From Cyanobacterium sp. Dongsha4 (GTDB lineage Bacteria; Cyanobacteriota; Cyanobacteriia; Cyanobacteriales; Cyanobacteriaceae), in NCBI RefSeq assembly GCF_036345015.1, contig NZ_CP084098.1:3299326-3363325 (forward strand): DNA of 64,000 nucleotides. The letters run 5' to 3'. Shown one piece after another: positions 17,722-52,347 of the stretch (its first letter is position 1; the number at the start of each line of letters is the position of its first letter). Position numbers and translations under genes: made by a program. Under the pieces are notes generated by a model, which was not told where the DNA came from, searched no databases, and saw nothing but the letters and a program-made list of their open reading frames with translations.

Positions 17722-17730
17722 GGTTAATCT

Positions 17731-17817
17731 GAGTTCGGGGTTCGGAGTTCGGAGTTCGGAGTTAAGAATAAAATTTAATTATACACTGTTCCCTGTTCCC
17801 TGTTCCCTGTTCCCTAC
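17731..17817. repeat. Two adjacent short tandem repeats (GGAGTTC and CCCTGTT)
   Basis: At 17731-17765 the heptamer GGAGTTC is repeated (with variants). At about 17784-17817 CCCTGTT is repeated four times. Both lie in the spacer between mutS2 and the restriction-modification gene. The same GGAGTTC motif, or its complement, recurs at about 22735-22790, 27138-27167, 29364-29390 and 59618-59640. Confidence 0.75.
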
Positions 17818-17854
17818 CTTCACCGACAATTTTATATCTAACTGAGGTGTTATC

Positions 17855-20800
17855 ATGGTTTTAAGTTGGAATGAAATTAAAAATAGAGCCTTAAATTTTA
17901 CCAAAGAATGGGAAAATGAAACCTCAGAAAATGCCGAAGCCAAATCATTTTGGGATGGTTTTTTCGATGTTTTTGGTGTGCCTAGAAGGCGTGTGGCTAC
18001 CTTTGAAAAATCGGTTAAAAAATTAGATAATAAACAGGGATTTATTGACTTATTATGGAAAGGAGTTATTCTTGTTGAACATAAATCCAAAGGCAAAAAT
18101 TTAGATAAAGCCTATCAACAAGCCATTGACTATTTCCCCGGATTAAAAGATCATGAATTGCCCAAATATATCCTTATTTCTGACTTTGCTAGGTTTAAAT
18201 TATACGACTTAGAAAATGATATTAACCATGAATTTTTACTCAGTGAATTTGTTAATAATGTTCACCTATTTGACTTTATAGCAGGGTATAAAAAACGAGA
18301 ATATAAAGATAGTGATCCTGTTAATATTAAAGCGGCTGAATTAATGGGACAGTTACATGATAGACTCAAAGAAATAGGTTATACTGGTCATGAATTAGAG
18401 GTTTATTTAGTACGTTTATTATTCTGTTTATTTGCTGACGATACAGGCATTTTTAATAAAAACATTTTCCAAGAATATATCGATTTACATACTAAAGAAG
18501 ATGGTAGCGATTTAGCTATGCACCTTACTTCTATTTTCCATACTTTAAACCAACCAGAAGAGAAAAGACTCAAAAATTTAGATGAAAATTTAGCACAATT
18601 TCCCTACATTAACGGCAAGTTATTTGAAGAAAATTTGCCTCCAGCTTCCTTTGACTCAGAAATGAGGGAAATGTTATTAAAAGCCTGTGCTTTAGACTGG
18701 GGGAAAATTTCCCCTGCCATATTTGGTTCGATGTTTCAGGCGGTGATGAATCCTAATGAAAGACGTAATTTAGGCGCTCATTATACCTCAGAAAAAAATA
18801 TTCAAAAAGTCATTAAACCTCTCTTTTTAGATGATTTATATACAGAGTTTGAAAAGGTAAAAACTAATCAAAATAAACTCAAGGAATTTCAGGAAAAAAT
18901 TGCTAATTTGAAATTTTTAGATCCAGCCTGTGGATGTGGTAACTTTTTAATTGTCAGTTATCGGGAATTGAGAGATTTAGAAATTTTAGTTTTAAAAGAG
19001 TTAAATAAAAAAGGACAATTAGAATTAGATATTAGCAACATTATTAAAGTCGATGTGGATCAATTTTTTGGTATTGAATACGATGAGTTTGCGGTGAGAG
19101 TGGCAGAGGTTGCCATGTGGTTAATTGATCATCAAATGAATATTAAAGTAAGTAATGAATTTGGTCAATATTTTGTCCGTTTACCTCTCAAAAAATCCGC
19201 TAAAATTGTTCATGGTAATGCTTTACAAATTGACTGGCACTCGCTCTTAAATTCCCCTCCTTTGAAGGAGGGGTTAGGGGTGGTAGAATCTAAATCTTTG
19301 AAGGATGGATTCGGGGTGTTTGAATTAACATCTGGAAAAGAAACAACAGAAAATAATTATCCCGCTTATAAATCAATAAGCAACCTTAAAGATAAAAAAG
19401 AGTTAAGAAAATCCCTAAGAAATAATGCCACTTCAGCCGAAATATTACTTTGGAAAGCCTTACAAGGGAAACAATTAGATGGTTTTAAATTTCGTAGGCA
19501 ACATTCTATTGGTAATTACATCTTAGACTTTTTTTGTCCTAGTGTTAGTCTAGCCATTGAATTAGATGGTGAATCTCATTATACTCCTGAAGCACAAGAA
19601 TACGATCGCATCCGAGACAATTTTCTTACCAATGTGGGAATTAGAGTAATTCGTTATCACAATCACGATGTATTTGATAATTTAACGGGGGTTTTAGAGG
19701 ATATTCGGCAATATCTTTATAATCCTGATGCTTCTTTTCAACGTAAATCTACCACCCCCAACCCCTCCTACATAGCAGAATCTACCACCCCCAACCCCTC
19801 CTACATAGGAGGGGAGAAAAATGTGTCTCAAAATTCCCCACCTTTTAAGGGGGGGCTAGGGGGGGTAAATAACTTTAATTTTATCTTTGGTAATCCCCCT
19901 TTTGTTGGTAAACAGTTACAAAATTCTCAGCAAAAAGCTGACATGAGTTTAGTTTTTAATGGAGTGAAAAATGCAGGAGTTTTAGATTATGTTTGTGCAT
20001 GGTATTTAAAAGCGTCTGAGTTTATTCAAAATACTAAGATTCGTTGTGCTTTTGTTAGTACAAATTCTATTTCTCAGGGTGAACAAGTAGGCATTTTATG
20101 GCAGGAATTATACACTAAATATAAGATTAAAATTCATTTTGCCCATCGTACTTTTTCTTGGAGTAATGAAGCGAAAGGTAACGCTGCCGTACATTGTGTT
20201 ATTATTGGTTTTGGTTTAGAAAATATCGATAATAAGCGACTTTTTTCCTACGAAAATATCAAAGGTGAAGCGACGGAAATTAAGGTTAAAAATATCAGTC
20301 CTTATTTAGTAGCTGGAAATGATTTAATTATTCAAAAAAGAAGTACTCAAATATCTAACTTACCTGAAATGTTAAAGGGAAGTCAACCAACTGATGGTGG
20401 AAATTTATTGATGACAGAAAAAGAAAAAATAGAGTATTTACAAAAGGAAAAATTAGGAGAAAAATTTATTAAACCCTTTATTTCTGCTGATGAATTTATT
20501 AATGGGAAAAATCGTTATTGTTTTTGGTTAATAGATATTCTACCTCAAGAATTAAAACAATTACCTTTGCTATTAAAAAGAGTAGAAGCCGTTAAGCAAA
20601 TGCGTCTAGCTAGTACAAAAAAAGCAACCCAAAAATGGGCAGAATTTCCCACTATTTTTACAGAAAATAGACAACCTAAAACTGATTATATTTTAATACC
20701 TAGAGTTTCTTCAGAAAATCGAAAATATATTCCAATGGGATTTTTTAAAAAAGAAATTATTGCTAGTGATAGTTGTATAACTATTTCTAATGGTGATTTA

Positions 20801-21208
20801 TTTTTATTTGGAATATTAACCTCAGAAATGCACATGACTTGGGTTAAATATGTCTGTGGAAGACTAAAAAGCGATTATCGTTACTCTAATTCTATTGTTT
20901 ATAATAACTTTCCCTTCCCTGAAAATGTAACGGCAAAACAGAGGGAAAAAGTAGCAAATTTAGCTCAAAAAATCCTCGATATAAGAAACAAATATCCTGA
21001 TAGTAGTTTAGCGGATTTATATAACCCTTTAACCATGCCTCCCGACTTATTAAAAGCCCATCAAACCCTTGACAAAGCCGTAGATTTATGCTATGCAAAA
21101 CAGTCTTTTTCCAGTGAGTTAAACCGCATCGAATTTTTATTTAATTTATATGAACAAATCAGCACCCCTTTGTTAAAACCTGAGAAGAAAAAAACAAGGA
21201 AAAAATGA
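17855..21208 (+). CDS. MmeI-like type II restriction-modification enzyme with inserted DUF559 nuclease domain
   Basis: A single-chain restriction enzyme and adenine methylase of 1117 residues. The N-terminal nuclease has the GFIDLLWKG...VEHKSKG (E-x-K) site near 62-80, as in MmeI. A helical spacer leads to the methylase: GAHYTSEKNI near 308, SAM motif FLDPACGCGN near 352-361 and the catalytic NPPF near 678. The C-terminal third is the target recognition region. Between HGNALQIDWHSLL (about 453-465) and FNFIFGNPPF, where relatives have a short loop, about 200 residues are inserted. These hold a complete DUF559 PD-(D/E)xK domain (about 519-620; NYILDFFCP and AIELDGESH carry the acidic residues) flanked by repeat-encoded SPPLKEG/NPSYIGGE peptides. 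The frame is open throughout. Whether the methylase still works is unknown. Confidence 0.88.
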   Translation: MVLSWNEIKNRALNFTKEWENETSENAEAKSFWDGFFDVFGVPRRRVATFEKSVKKLDNKQGFIDLLWKGVILVEHKSKGKNLDKAYQQAIDYFPGLKDHELPKYILISDFARFKLYDLENDINHEFLLSEFVNNVHLFDFIAGYKKREYKDSDPVNIKAAELMGQLHDRLKEIGYTGHELEVYLVRLLFCLFADDTGIFNKNIFQEYIDLHTKEDGSDLAMHLTSIFHTLNQPEEKRLKNLDENLAQFPYINGKLFEENLPPASFDSEMREMLLKACALDWGKISPAIFGSMFQAVMNPNERRNLGAHYTSEKNIQKVIKPLFLDDLYTEFEKVKTNQNKLKEFQEKIANLKFLDPACGCGNFLIVSYRELRDLEILVLKELNKKGQLELDISNIIKVDVDQFFGIEYDEFAVRVAEVAMWLIDHQMNIKVSNEFGQYFVRLPLKKSAKIVHGNALQIDWHSLLNSPPLKEGLGVVESKSLKDGFGVFELTSGKETTENNYPAYKSISNLKDKKELRKSLRNNATSAEILLWKALQGKQLDGFKFRRQHSIGNYILDFFCPSVSLAIELDGESHYTPEAQEYDRIRDNFLTNVGIRVIRYHNHDVFDNLTGVLEDIRQYLYNPDASFQRKSTTPNPSYIAESTTPNPSYIGGEKNVSQNSPPFKGGLGGVNNFNFIFGNPPFVGKQLQNSQQKADMSLVFNGVKNAGVLDYVCAWYLKASEFIQNTKIRCAFVSTNSISQGEQVGILWQELYTKYKIKIHFAHRTFSWSNEAKGNAAVHCVIIGFGLENIDNKRLFSYENIKGEATEIKVKNISPYLVAGNDLIIQKRSTQISNLPEMLKGSQPTDGGNLLMTEKEKIEYLQKEKLGEKFIKPFISADEFINGKNRYCFWLIDILPQELKQLPLLLKRVEAVKQMRLASTKKATQKWAEFPTIFTENRQPKTDYILIPRVSSENRKYIPMGFFKKEIIASDSCITISNGDLFLFGILTSEMHMTWVKYVCGRLKSDYRYSNSIVYNNFPFPENVTAKQREKVANLAQKILDIRNKYPDSSLADLYNPLTMPPDLLKAHQTLDKAVDLCYAKQSFSSELNRIEFLFNLYEQISTPLLKPEKKKTRKK
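19254..19814. mobile_element. In-frame DUF559 module bounded by inverted repeats
   Basis: The left arm (19254-19291) contains CCCCTCCTTTGAAGGAGGGG followed by TTAGGGGTGGTAGAATCT. The right arm (19777-19814) is its reverse complement with few mismatches: AGAATCTACCACCCCCAACC, then the CCCCTCC..GGAGGGG hairpin. A second, tandem copy of part of the right arm lies at 19748-19776, and a further left-type copy at about 19853-19868. The DUF559 domain is encoded between the arms with no stop in the host frame. The same palindromic repeat occurs outside genes, for example at 21226-21250. The unit looks like an inserted element tolerated in frame. Confidence 0.7.
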
Positions 21209-21225
21209 TAATTGTAAATAAAATT

Positions 21226-21252
21226 CCCCCCTTATTAAGGGGGGTTAGGGGG
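21226..21252. repeat. Palindromic REP-like repeat
   Basis: CCCCCCTTATTAAGGGGGG (21226-21244) followed by TTAGGGGGG, just after the restriction-modification gene. It has the same plan as the repeats bounding the DUF559 module (palindrome, then TTAGGGG) and as the one that cuts the MoxR gene near 52331. Confidence 0.75.
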
Positions 21253-52323: not shown

Positions 52324-52347
52324 TACCCTAACCCCCCTTAAACAAAG
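52324..52347. repeat. Half of a REP-like palindrome that interrupts MoxR
   Basis: CCCTAACCCCCCTTAAACAAAG at the MoxR break matches the REP-like family (on the minus strand: TTAAGGGGGGTTAGGG). The other half (AACAAAGGGGGAAC) lies at 52621-52634, so the palindrome is split by the element at 52348-52617. Confidence 0.75.

Follow-up and report, generated by a model that had tools for sequence, protein, structure and literature searches.

The window analysed here, a 64,000-nucleotide stretch of the genome of Cyanobacterium sp. Dongsha4, contains a gene for an MmeI-like restriction-modification (R-M) enzyme in which a second nuclease, of the DUF559 family, lies in the same reading frame. This locus raises the question of how the nuclease came to be there, and whether the inverted repeats around it are incidental or belong to it as the ends of a mobile element. 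The original prediction, made from the letters of the window, described a module with the shape of a mobile element that enters genes without breaking the frame, and whose nuclease might act on its own repeats, by analogy to REP-associated transposases. Here this proposal is examined by comparison with DUF559 loci in other genomes.

Results

The insert and its host enzyme

The open reading frame that carries the insert (17855-21208) encodes MmeI_N, MmeI_hel, MmeI_Mtase, MmeI_TRD and MmeI_C, all above the Pfam cut-off and in this order, with MmeI_Mtase split into two stretches. Its closest relative of solved structure is MmeI itself (PDB 5HR4), which can be aligned with it by phmmer on both sides of the insert (query residues 1-467 with MmeI 1-472, and 675-1114 with MmeI 476-913) but has no DUF559 insert of its own. 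These flanking alignments therefore define residues 468-674 as extra and confirm the predicted position of the module, between MmeI residues 472 and 476 and directly N-terminal of the NPPF motif; in the insert-free relatives L216 and L222 the spacing from HGNAL to GNPPF is 27 residues. DUF559 (PF04480, E = 1.3e-30) is the sole domain that Pfam finds in the insert; it retains the conserved residues of its family, and a known transposase catalytic domain is absent. Apart from the MmeI domains and DUF559, a Pfam search of the whole protein to E 0.1 gave nuclease or methylase relatives and no Y1_Tnp domain, for which reason membership among the RAYT transposases was rejected. Because residues 472-680 contain no Met, the insert is probably produced only as part of the enzyme, GTG and TTG starts still being possible. 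The gap upstream of the gene holds short tandem runs of TTCGGAG and CTGTTCC units (17730-17820).

Table 1 Features of the MmeI-type gene, its insert and the neighbouring repeats (positions in the window)
Feature	Position	Strand	Remarks
MmeI-type restriction-modification enzyme (host gene)	17855..21208	+	1117 aa with insert; Pfam, 5HR4 alignment
Left inverted repeat	19254..19291	+	Palindrome CCCCTCCTTTGAAGGAGGGG (19254-19273), then TTAGGGGTGG tail toward the nuclease
In-frame insert	about 19256..19876	+	aa 468-674 (207 residues); phmmer against 5HR4
DUF559 (PF04480) PD-(D/E)XK / Vsr-like nuclease domain, intact	19394..19717	+	aa 514-621
33-bp unit, two tandem copies	19746..19811	+	97% identical; peptide STTPNPSYI; local expansion of right repeat
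Right inverted repeat	19777..19814	-	Tail, then palindrome CCCCTCCTACATAGGAGGGG (19795-19814)
Third palindromic repeat, of a different type, in frame	19831..19867	+	Peptide NSPPFKGGLGGV; between element and host gene
Intergenic repeat CCCCCCTTATTAAGGGGGGTTAGGGGG	21226..21252	+	Dispersed, other family; resembles those beside DUF559 locus L002

The long inverted repeats predicted around the module are present as arms of 39 nt (19253-19291 and 19777-19815) that are 90% complementary. The insert DNA opens with the palindrome and its TTAGGGGTGG tail, and the DUF559 part closes with the same, reversed. The motif CCCCTCC-N3..8-GGAGGGG occurs twice in the window, at 19254 and 19795, and in none of 60 Markov-1 simulated windows; with no mismatch allowed, these are also its only two places in the whole 4.3 Mb genome. 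The exact palindrome is not dispersed across the 4.3 Mb searched, and a genome-wide set of targets is not apparent for the window copy. In the congener G001 the exact palindrome is found solely at both ends of the DUF559 insert, and in G014 as one copy adjoining a freestanding relative (L012); one further copy was found in G008 and none in G012, G010 or G020. GTAG is present in the left arm of the window copy, 10 bases past the palindrome and at the end of the tail.

The same repeat plan had been predicted at two further places in the window. At 21226-21252 the plan holds but the sequence differs, CCCCCCTTATTAAGGGGGG resembling the palindromes at the two remaining DUF559 loci in the genome. 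At 52331, described as a break in a MoxR gene, half a repeat (CCCTAACCCCCCTTAAACAAAG) is present and the full repeat is not.

Palindromes bound DUF559 loci in many genomes

Three DUF559 matches were found in this genome, namely the window copy, a locus with one internal stop and palindromes on both sides (L002), and a truncated one with palindromic repeats on one side (L003). Other DUF559 frames bounded by palindromes, whose absence was to have spoken against the original prediction, proved plentiful in and outside genes. CCC/GGG hairpins within 170 bp lie on both sides of 39 of 52 cyanobacterial loci and on either side of 50; in 13 loci at least one side has none, and in 2 of these neither side has any. 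The corresponding values are 0/30 and 4/30 for Uma2 nuclease genes and 0/98 and 18/98 for shifted positions. These 52 loci (1 from the genome itself, plus 24, 7 and 20) are not all independent and leave out L002, L003, L011, L022 and L024-L026; the group of 7 stems from a set of 20 regions picked for long frames. When inverted repeats common to both 300-bp flanks were sought, 23 of 45 cyanobacterial loci had them (the weak partial matches L024-L026 being excluded, and loci at contig edges falling out of the flank counts), compared with 0/30 for Uma2 and 0/48, 0/47, 1/45 and 0/45 at shifted positions.

A similar picture was obtained in a multi-phylum set, comprising the best 80 of at least 585 named loci for a query built from in-gene copies (13 of them cyanobacterial by title; L135 and L136 coincide with L067 and L066). 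Among its 72 testable loci, 39 passed the inverted-repeat test, against 0/68, 1/69, 3/69 and 1/67 at shifted positions, and hairpins were found on both sides of 46 and on either side of 62 (shifted, 0/131 and 14/131). In a test rich in f43, a small-genome lineage of the same phylum that we presume to be a gut group, 11 of 16 testable loci passed (15 of the 16 being from f43) against 0/32 shifted positions; 14 of the 30 input loci had no recognisable motif. A gene flanked by inverted palindromic repeats, which is a RAYT-type feature, was thus found for the window copy and for most loci surveyed, with the tail of the repeat directed inward at some loci and outward at others. A chance origin of the palindromes was rejected on the flank controls, the genome-wide uniqueness of the motif and the Markov-1 simulation. 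Distant homologues with DUF559 at a similar position and no repeats, which would suggest an old fixed fusion, have partial counterparts: HsdR proteins of this kind exist in an archaeon, a spirochaete and a member of the Bacteroidales and gave 0/3 in the inverted-repeat test, yet repeat-derived peptides adjoin them.

Host proteins that carry DUF559 in frame

About 23 distinct in-frame host contexts of DUF559 were recognised with Pfam or NCBIfam support, and 16 of them are DNA methylase or R-M genes. These include MmeI-like enzymes (the window enzyme, L071, L134 and L172), Eco57I-type enzymes (L063, L066, L068, L070 and L190), HsdM at two sites (L157/L201 and L196), HsdR, HsdS, a type ISP enzyme (L065), an N6_N4 methylase (L142) and DUF1156 (L067), which we count, by assumption, as a methylase or R-M gene. 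The other seven are PriA, HrpA, valyl-tRNA synthetase, MobA, HisF, IspE and EPSP synthase/NUDIX, the HisF and IspE cases being N-terminal fusions. The R-M bias is itself uncertain, as the input was partly selected for long frames or consisted of the best 80 of at least 585 loci found with an in-gene query, and many of the host examples come from metagenome assemblies. Other long DUF559 frames (for example, L164 and L183) are among those without a named host or outside the scan; as a control, no frame exceeds 300 aa among the Uma2 matches listed. Pfam found no splicing (Hint) family in the window protein or the other scanned hosts, and identity with an intein was rejected on this ground.

Filled, empty and repeat-only sites

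The empty sites that the original prediction called for were found, and filled alleles stand beside empty or repeat-only ones at the MmeI, L063-type, PriA and intergenic sites. Of 18 loci retrieved for the MmeI site, 12 were readable and six could not be located; the 12 have nothing (L216, L222), palindromic repeats only (L214, L220, L227, L228), other repeats (L218, L219) or DUF559 (L213, L215, L217, L230). In G020 the MmeI-type gene is present three times, once with one repeat, once with four repeats and once with DUF559. DUF559 occupies this same MmeI site in four genomes. Because three relatives share it, the window copy may be old, and the four-genome distribution, together with dN/dS values of 0.06-0.10 among the MmeI-site copies (some with saturated dS), fits old retention. 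Judged from these sequences, the window copy is probably an old insertion that was retained and that the enzyme now has as an additional domain.

The Eco57I-type gene of L063 has DUF559 in L231 and L233 and is empty in L232, which is 97% identical across the 651-bp left-flank query. Two more distant loci, L234 and L235 (65% and 64% identical in the left flank), have another protein and other repeats at this site. At about 2230-3129 of L234 and L235, the Eco57I-type gene thus contains in frame a RAYT-like Y1 transposase that has repeats of its own, Y1_Tnp being recognised by Pfam in L234, the locus scanned.

For PriA, 30 of 33 genomes of one genus gave the locus: 13 are without a repeat, 11 have a longer, different sequence, 1 has a palindrome fragment (L304), 4 have DUF559 and 1 is cut by a contig end. 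A nuclease-free, repeat-like sequence fills the PriA loop in L305, L306, L311, L312, L316, L317, L319, L320, L322, L323 and L329. Where G219 has the intergenic element L094, G332 and G303 have a single repeat and lack DUF559, the flanks being about 88-94% identical; the loci of the other two genomes of this genus, G331 and G270, do not span the site. A clean target-site duplication was seen at none of the sites compared in this respect (the intergenic L094 site and PriA).

Traces of movement between sites

Members of the element pairs L089/L094, L137/L138 and L014/L016 are 83-95% identical, while their flanks have no further DNA similarity except repeats, and the similarity between the copies stops at or near the palindromes. 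Other near-identical pairs, such as L087/L093, have common flanks and look orthologous. A tree of 142 DUF559 sequences (145 rows less L011, L135 and L136, which duplicate other loci) requires no fewer than 15 switches between the in-gene and the free state and no fewer than 31 from one host label to another; it is built on few columns, many of its forks are weak, and the branch of L162 is very long. HsdM and HsdR copies from several phyla (L146, L151, L177, L157, L175 and L201) group in a single DUF559 clade, as though a lineage had specialised on type I R-M genes; the grouping is compatible with spread along with the host gene. The mobile-element shape proposed for the module is supported by recurrent bounded frames across phyla, by repeat-only and empty counterparts and by near-identical elements in unrelated flanks, and mobility over evolutionary time is well supported by these comparisons.

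Repeat type follows nuclease clade

In 41 of 46 cases (5.8 expected) a repeat and its best partner came from a single DUF559 clade. With same-genome and orthologous pairs removed (four MmeI, five ISP and two L063-type copies judged orthologous by hand, plus 34 blastn pairs), the count was 33 of 46 (4.7 expected; r = 0.616), and none of 2000 permutations reached this level. For nine pairs that share a genome but belong to different clades, the mean repeat score was 14.9 (range 8-24), the comparison scores being 13.7 for unrelated pairs and 33.3 for same-clade pairs. Counts were made by eye in 117 genomes of one family, a nuclease of at least 70% identity to L089 being taken as cognate: one repeat type is present in 21 of 25 genomes with the cognate nuclease versus 8 of 92 without it, and in 14 of 25 versus 8 of 92 when copies at the element are excluded (p = 1.3e-6, uncorrected for kinship). 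In 4 of the 25 genomes the cognate nuclease is present and the repeat pattern absent. The 10.7 Mb genome G350 has 114 copies of a close repeat variant, and its sole DUF559 match in this search is 46% identical to L089. The link between nuclease and repeat, first suggested from one locus, is supported indirectly, by the match of repeat types to nuclease clades and by the higher frequency of one repeat family in genomes that have its nuclease; as far as sequences can tell, the partnership is well supported.

Nuclease-free repeats in the same genome

A pattern for the palindromic repeats marks 25 places in this genome, of which 20 were examined, leaving aside both places in the window, L002, L003 and a further one. 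The repeat lies in frame within a long open frame at 13 of the 20 (L283-L288, L290, L292-L294 and L296-L298), in hosts that include IleRS, Mfd, PutA, GltB, CobN/Mg-chelatase and PanC-Cmk, and is read as a Pro/Gly-rich linker. The gene of L292 holds DUF559 in the relative G036 (L070), apparently at the same site by peptide comparison. The notion that the palindromes are specially stop-free failed, as 89 repeats are open in 3.43 of six frames versus 3.76 for shuffled letters. Nothing therefore appears specially built for in-frame insertion, and the in-frame repeats are probably what selection has left. Four of the 13 nuclease-free in-frame hosts are R-M genes; since repeats without the nuclease also lie in such genes, a functional reason for the R-M bias of DUF559 was set aside.

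The nuclease

Thirteen residues are invariant across 80 DUF559 sequences, in-gene copies included. E24, H70 and D79 are invariant in these 80 and D53 is present in at least 90%, and it is our own reading that they correspond to the EDxHD motif. An AlphaFold model of the domain (pLDDT 91) matches 3hrl and I-Bth0305I (3r3p), and Vsr more weakly, in Foldseek searches. Profile searches agree on 3hrl and 3r3p, and 3r3p, matched at E 1.4e-5 by profile and 2.4e-4 by Foldseek, has the catalytic fold of the EDxHD family. Among in-gene copies, dN/dS is 0.03-0.20 in 10 of the 11 pairs that gave a value and 0.37 in one recent pair, several pairs having dS >1 and three giving no value; six free pairs have 0.23-0.49. 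On comparison, these ratios show the nuclease to be under purifying selection.

We take YcjD to be an E. coli protein of the DUF559 family. Passages of PMC1189080 treat it as a putative PD-(D/E)XK enzyme, and in passages of PMC9403480 a DUF559 gene is placed in the EDxHD homing endonuclease family. The word DUF559 occurs in 14 of 5.39 million open-licence PMC papers. Among the papers listed for DUF559 (PF04480/YcjD), none has a title or abstract opening that connects the family with palindromic repeats.

Discussion

The reading that we favour, and consider likely, is that the DUF559 insert is a mobile, homing-like nuclease element that has its own palindromes as ends and is tolerated in frame inside proteins. 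Comparison of the loci reveals that the structure is bounded, that it has repeatedly arrived at or been lost from given sites and that its hosts are many and unrelated, which suggests a form of mobile DNA, not described before, hidden in working proteins. Such an element would consist of a short DUF559 gene of the Vsr or EDxHD type (about 110 residues) between two inverted copies of a GC-rich palindrome. Because palindromes in an open frame yield Pro/Gly-rich linkers, copies that fall in protein loops would be tolerated and kept in working genes, and copies that break a gene would presumably be lost. The nuclease may recognise and cut its own palindrome or a similar site, and, much as happens in homing, repair from a nuclease-bearing copy could then install the element. 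In the window the element sits in a loop of MmeI that also takes repeats alone. Simple homing leaves the arrival of repeats at new sites unexplained. A broader proposal, which could well hold although we stop just short of favouring it, is that DUF559 and its palindromes form a separate class of mobile elements in bacteria and archaea, homing-type nucleases for which the palindromes are both ends and target, and which become hidden domains of host proteins, core enzymes among them, and seed nuclease-free linker repeats.

It is unlikely, in our estimate, that the insert is simply an old domain fusion, in which DUF559 was recruited to R-M enzymes as a useful extra nuclease and the palindromes are incidental linker DNA. 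The preponderance of methylase and R-M genes (16 of 23 host contexts), the MmeI site common to four genomes with its dN/dS of 0.06-0.10, and the insert without Met all agree with a fusion. However, seven contexts lie outside R-M (PriA, IspE, HrpA, EPSP synthase/NUDIX, ValRS, MobA and HisF), freestanding copies have the same kind of palindromes, repeats match the nuclease clade, and the DUF559-free repeats found in frame in R-M genes here (4 of 13) had no nuclease to recruit. Less probable still is that a different enzyme moves the palindromic repeats and that DUF559 is cargo trapped between two of them. Such a passenger role would accord with the DUF559-free repeats, which outnumber the DUF559 copies in this genome and lie in many genes, with the 8 of 92 genomes that have the repeat without its cognate nuclease, and with the RAYT-like Y1 transposase and other repeats at the same Eco57I-type gene site in relatives, yet repeat type goes with the DUF559 clade from genome to genome and is not shared by different clades of one genome, and the exact palindrome of the window clade is found solely at the element. 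Finally, that DUF559 is a Vsr-like repair enzyme with palindromes nearby through chance or selection, as might be thought from passages of PMC12907096, where the Caulobacter DUF559 protein VsrA is proposed to be such an enzyme and causes SOS induction in the absence of the methylase ScmA, is very improbable, for it leaves the inverted palindromes at two ends, the in-frame copies in unrelated genes and the filled and empty alleles unexplained.

If the homing-like element is real, it would give a role to the large and little-studied DUF559 family, offer a candidate enzyme for dispersed palindromes unlike the GTAG-tagged REPs, and account for in-frame Pro/Gly-rich insertions in many proteins. It also makes testable the entry of short palindromes into coding sequence without destruction of the gene, and the addition of domains by nucleases to restriction enzymes and housekeeping proteins.

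Among known systems, the RAYT transposases with their REPs and REPINs resemble the DUF559 element in that inverted palindromes flank a nuclease gene, cognate repeats are dispersed in some genomes, and repeat type matches the enzyme (for RAYTs in part from passages of PMC3733652). The predicted comparison with REP-associated transposases stands as an analogy, but the enzymes are unrelated, DUF559 being of the PD-(D/E)XK or Vsr-like type and not a Y1 HUH enzyme, its whole gene often lies in frame in proteins, and GTAG, the RAYT-type tag, lies within 5 bases of the palindrome foot in 2 of 89 repeats. With the EDxHD homing endonuclease I-Bth0305I the element has a related catalytic fold in common; it differs in having no surrounding intron or intein, in its palindromic ends and in its many different host genes, and its homing is inferred. 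Rickettsia palindromic elements (RPE) and intragenic GTAG/CGTC REPs are alike in placing palindromes in frame in coding genes. To our knowledge neither carries a nuclease gene, whereas a DUF559 nuclease lies between the palindromes here. Passages of PMC3733652 describe both as inserted in frame in protein-coding genes. A last likeness can be drawn at the level of the host protein. DUF559 inserts recall inteins with a homing endonuclease, which are in-frame nuclease insertions in core genes and for which empty alleles exist; unlike these, the DUF559 insert has no splicing domain in Pfam and presumably stays in the mature protein.
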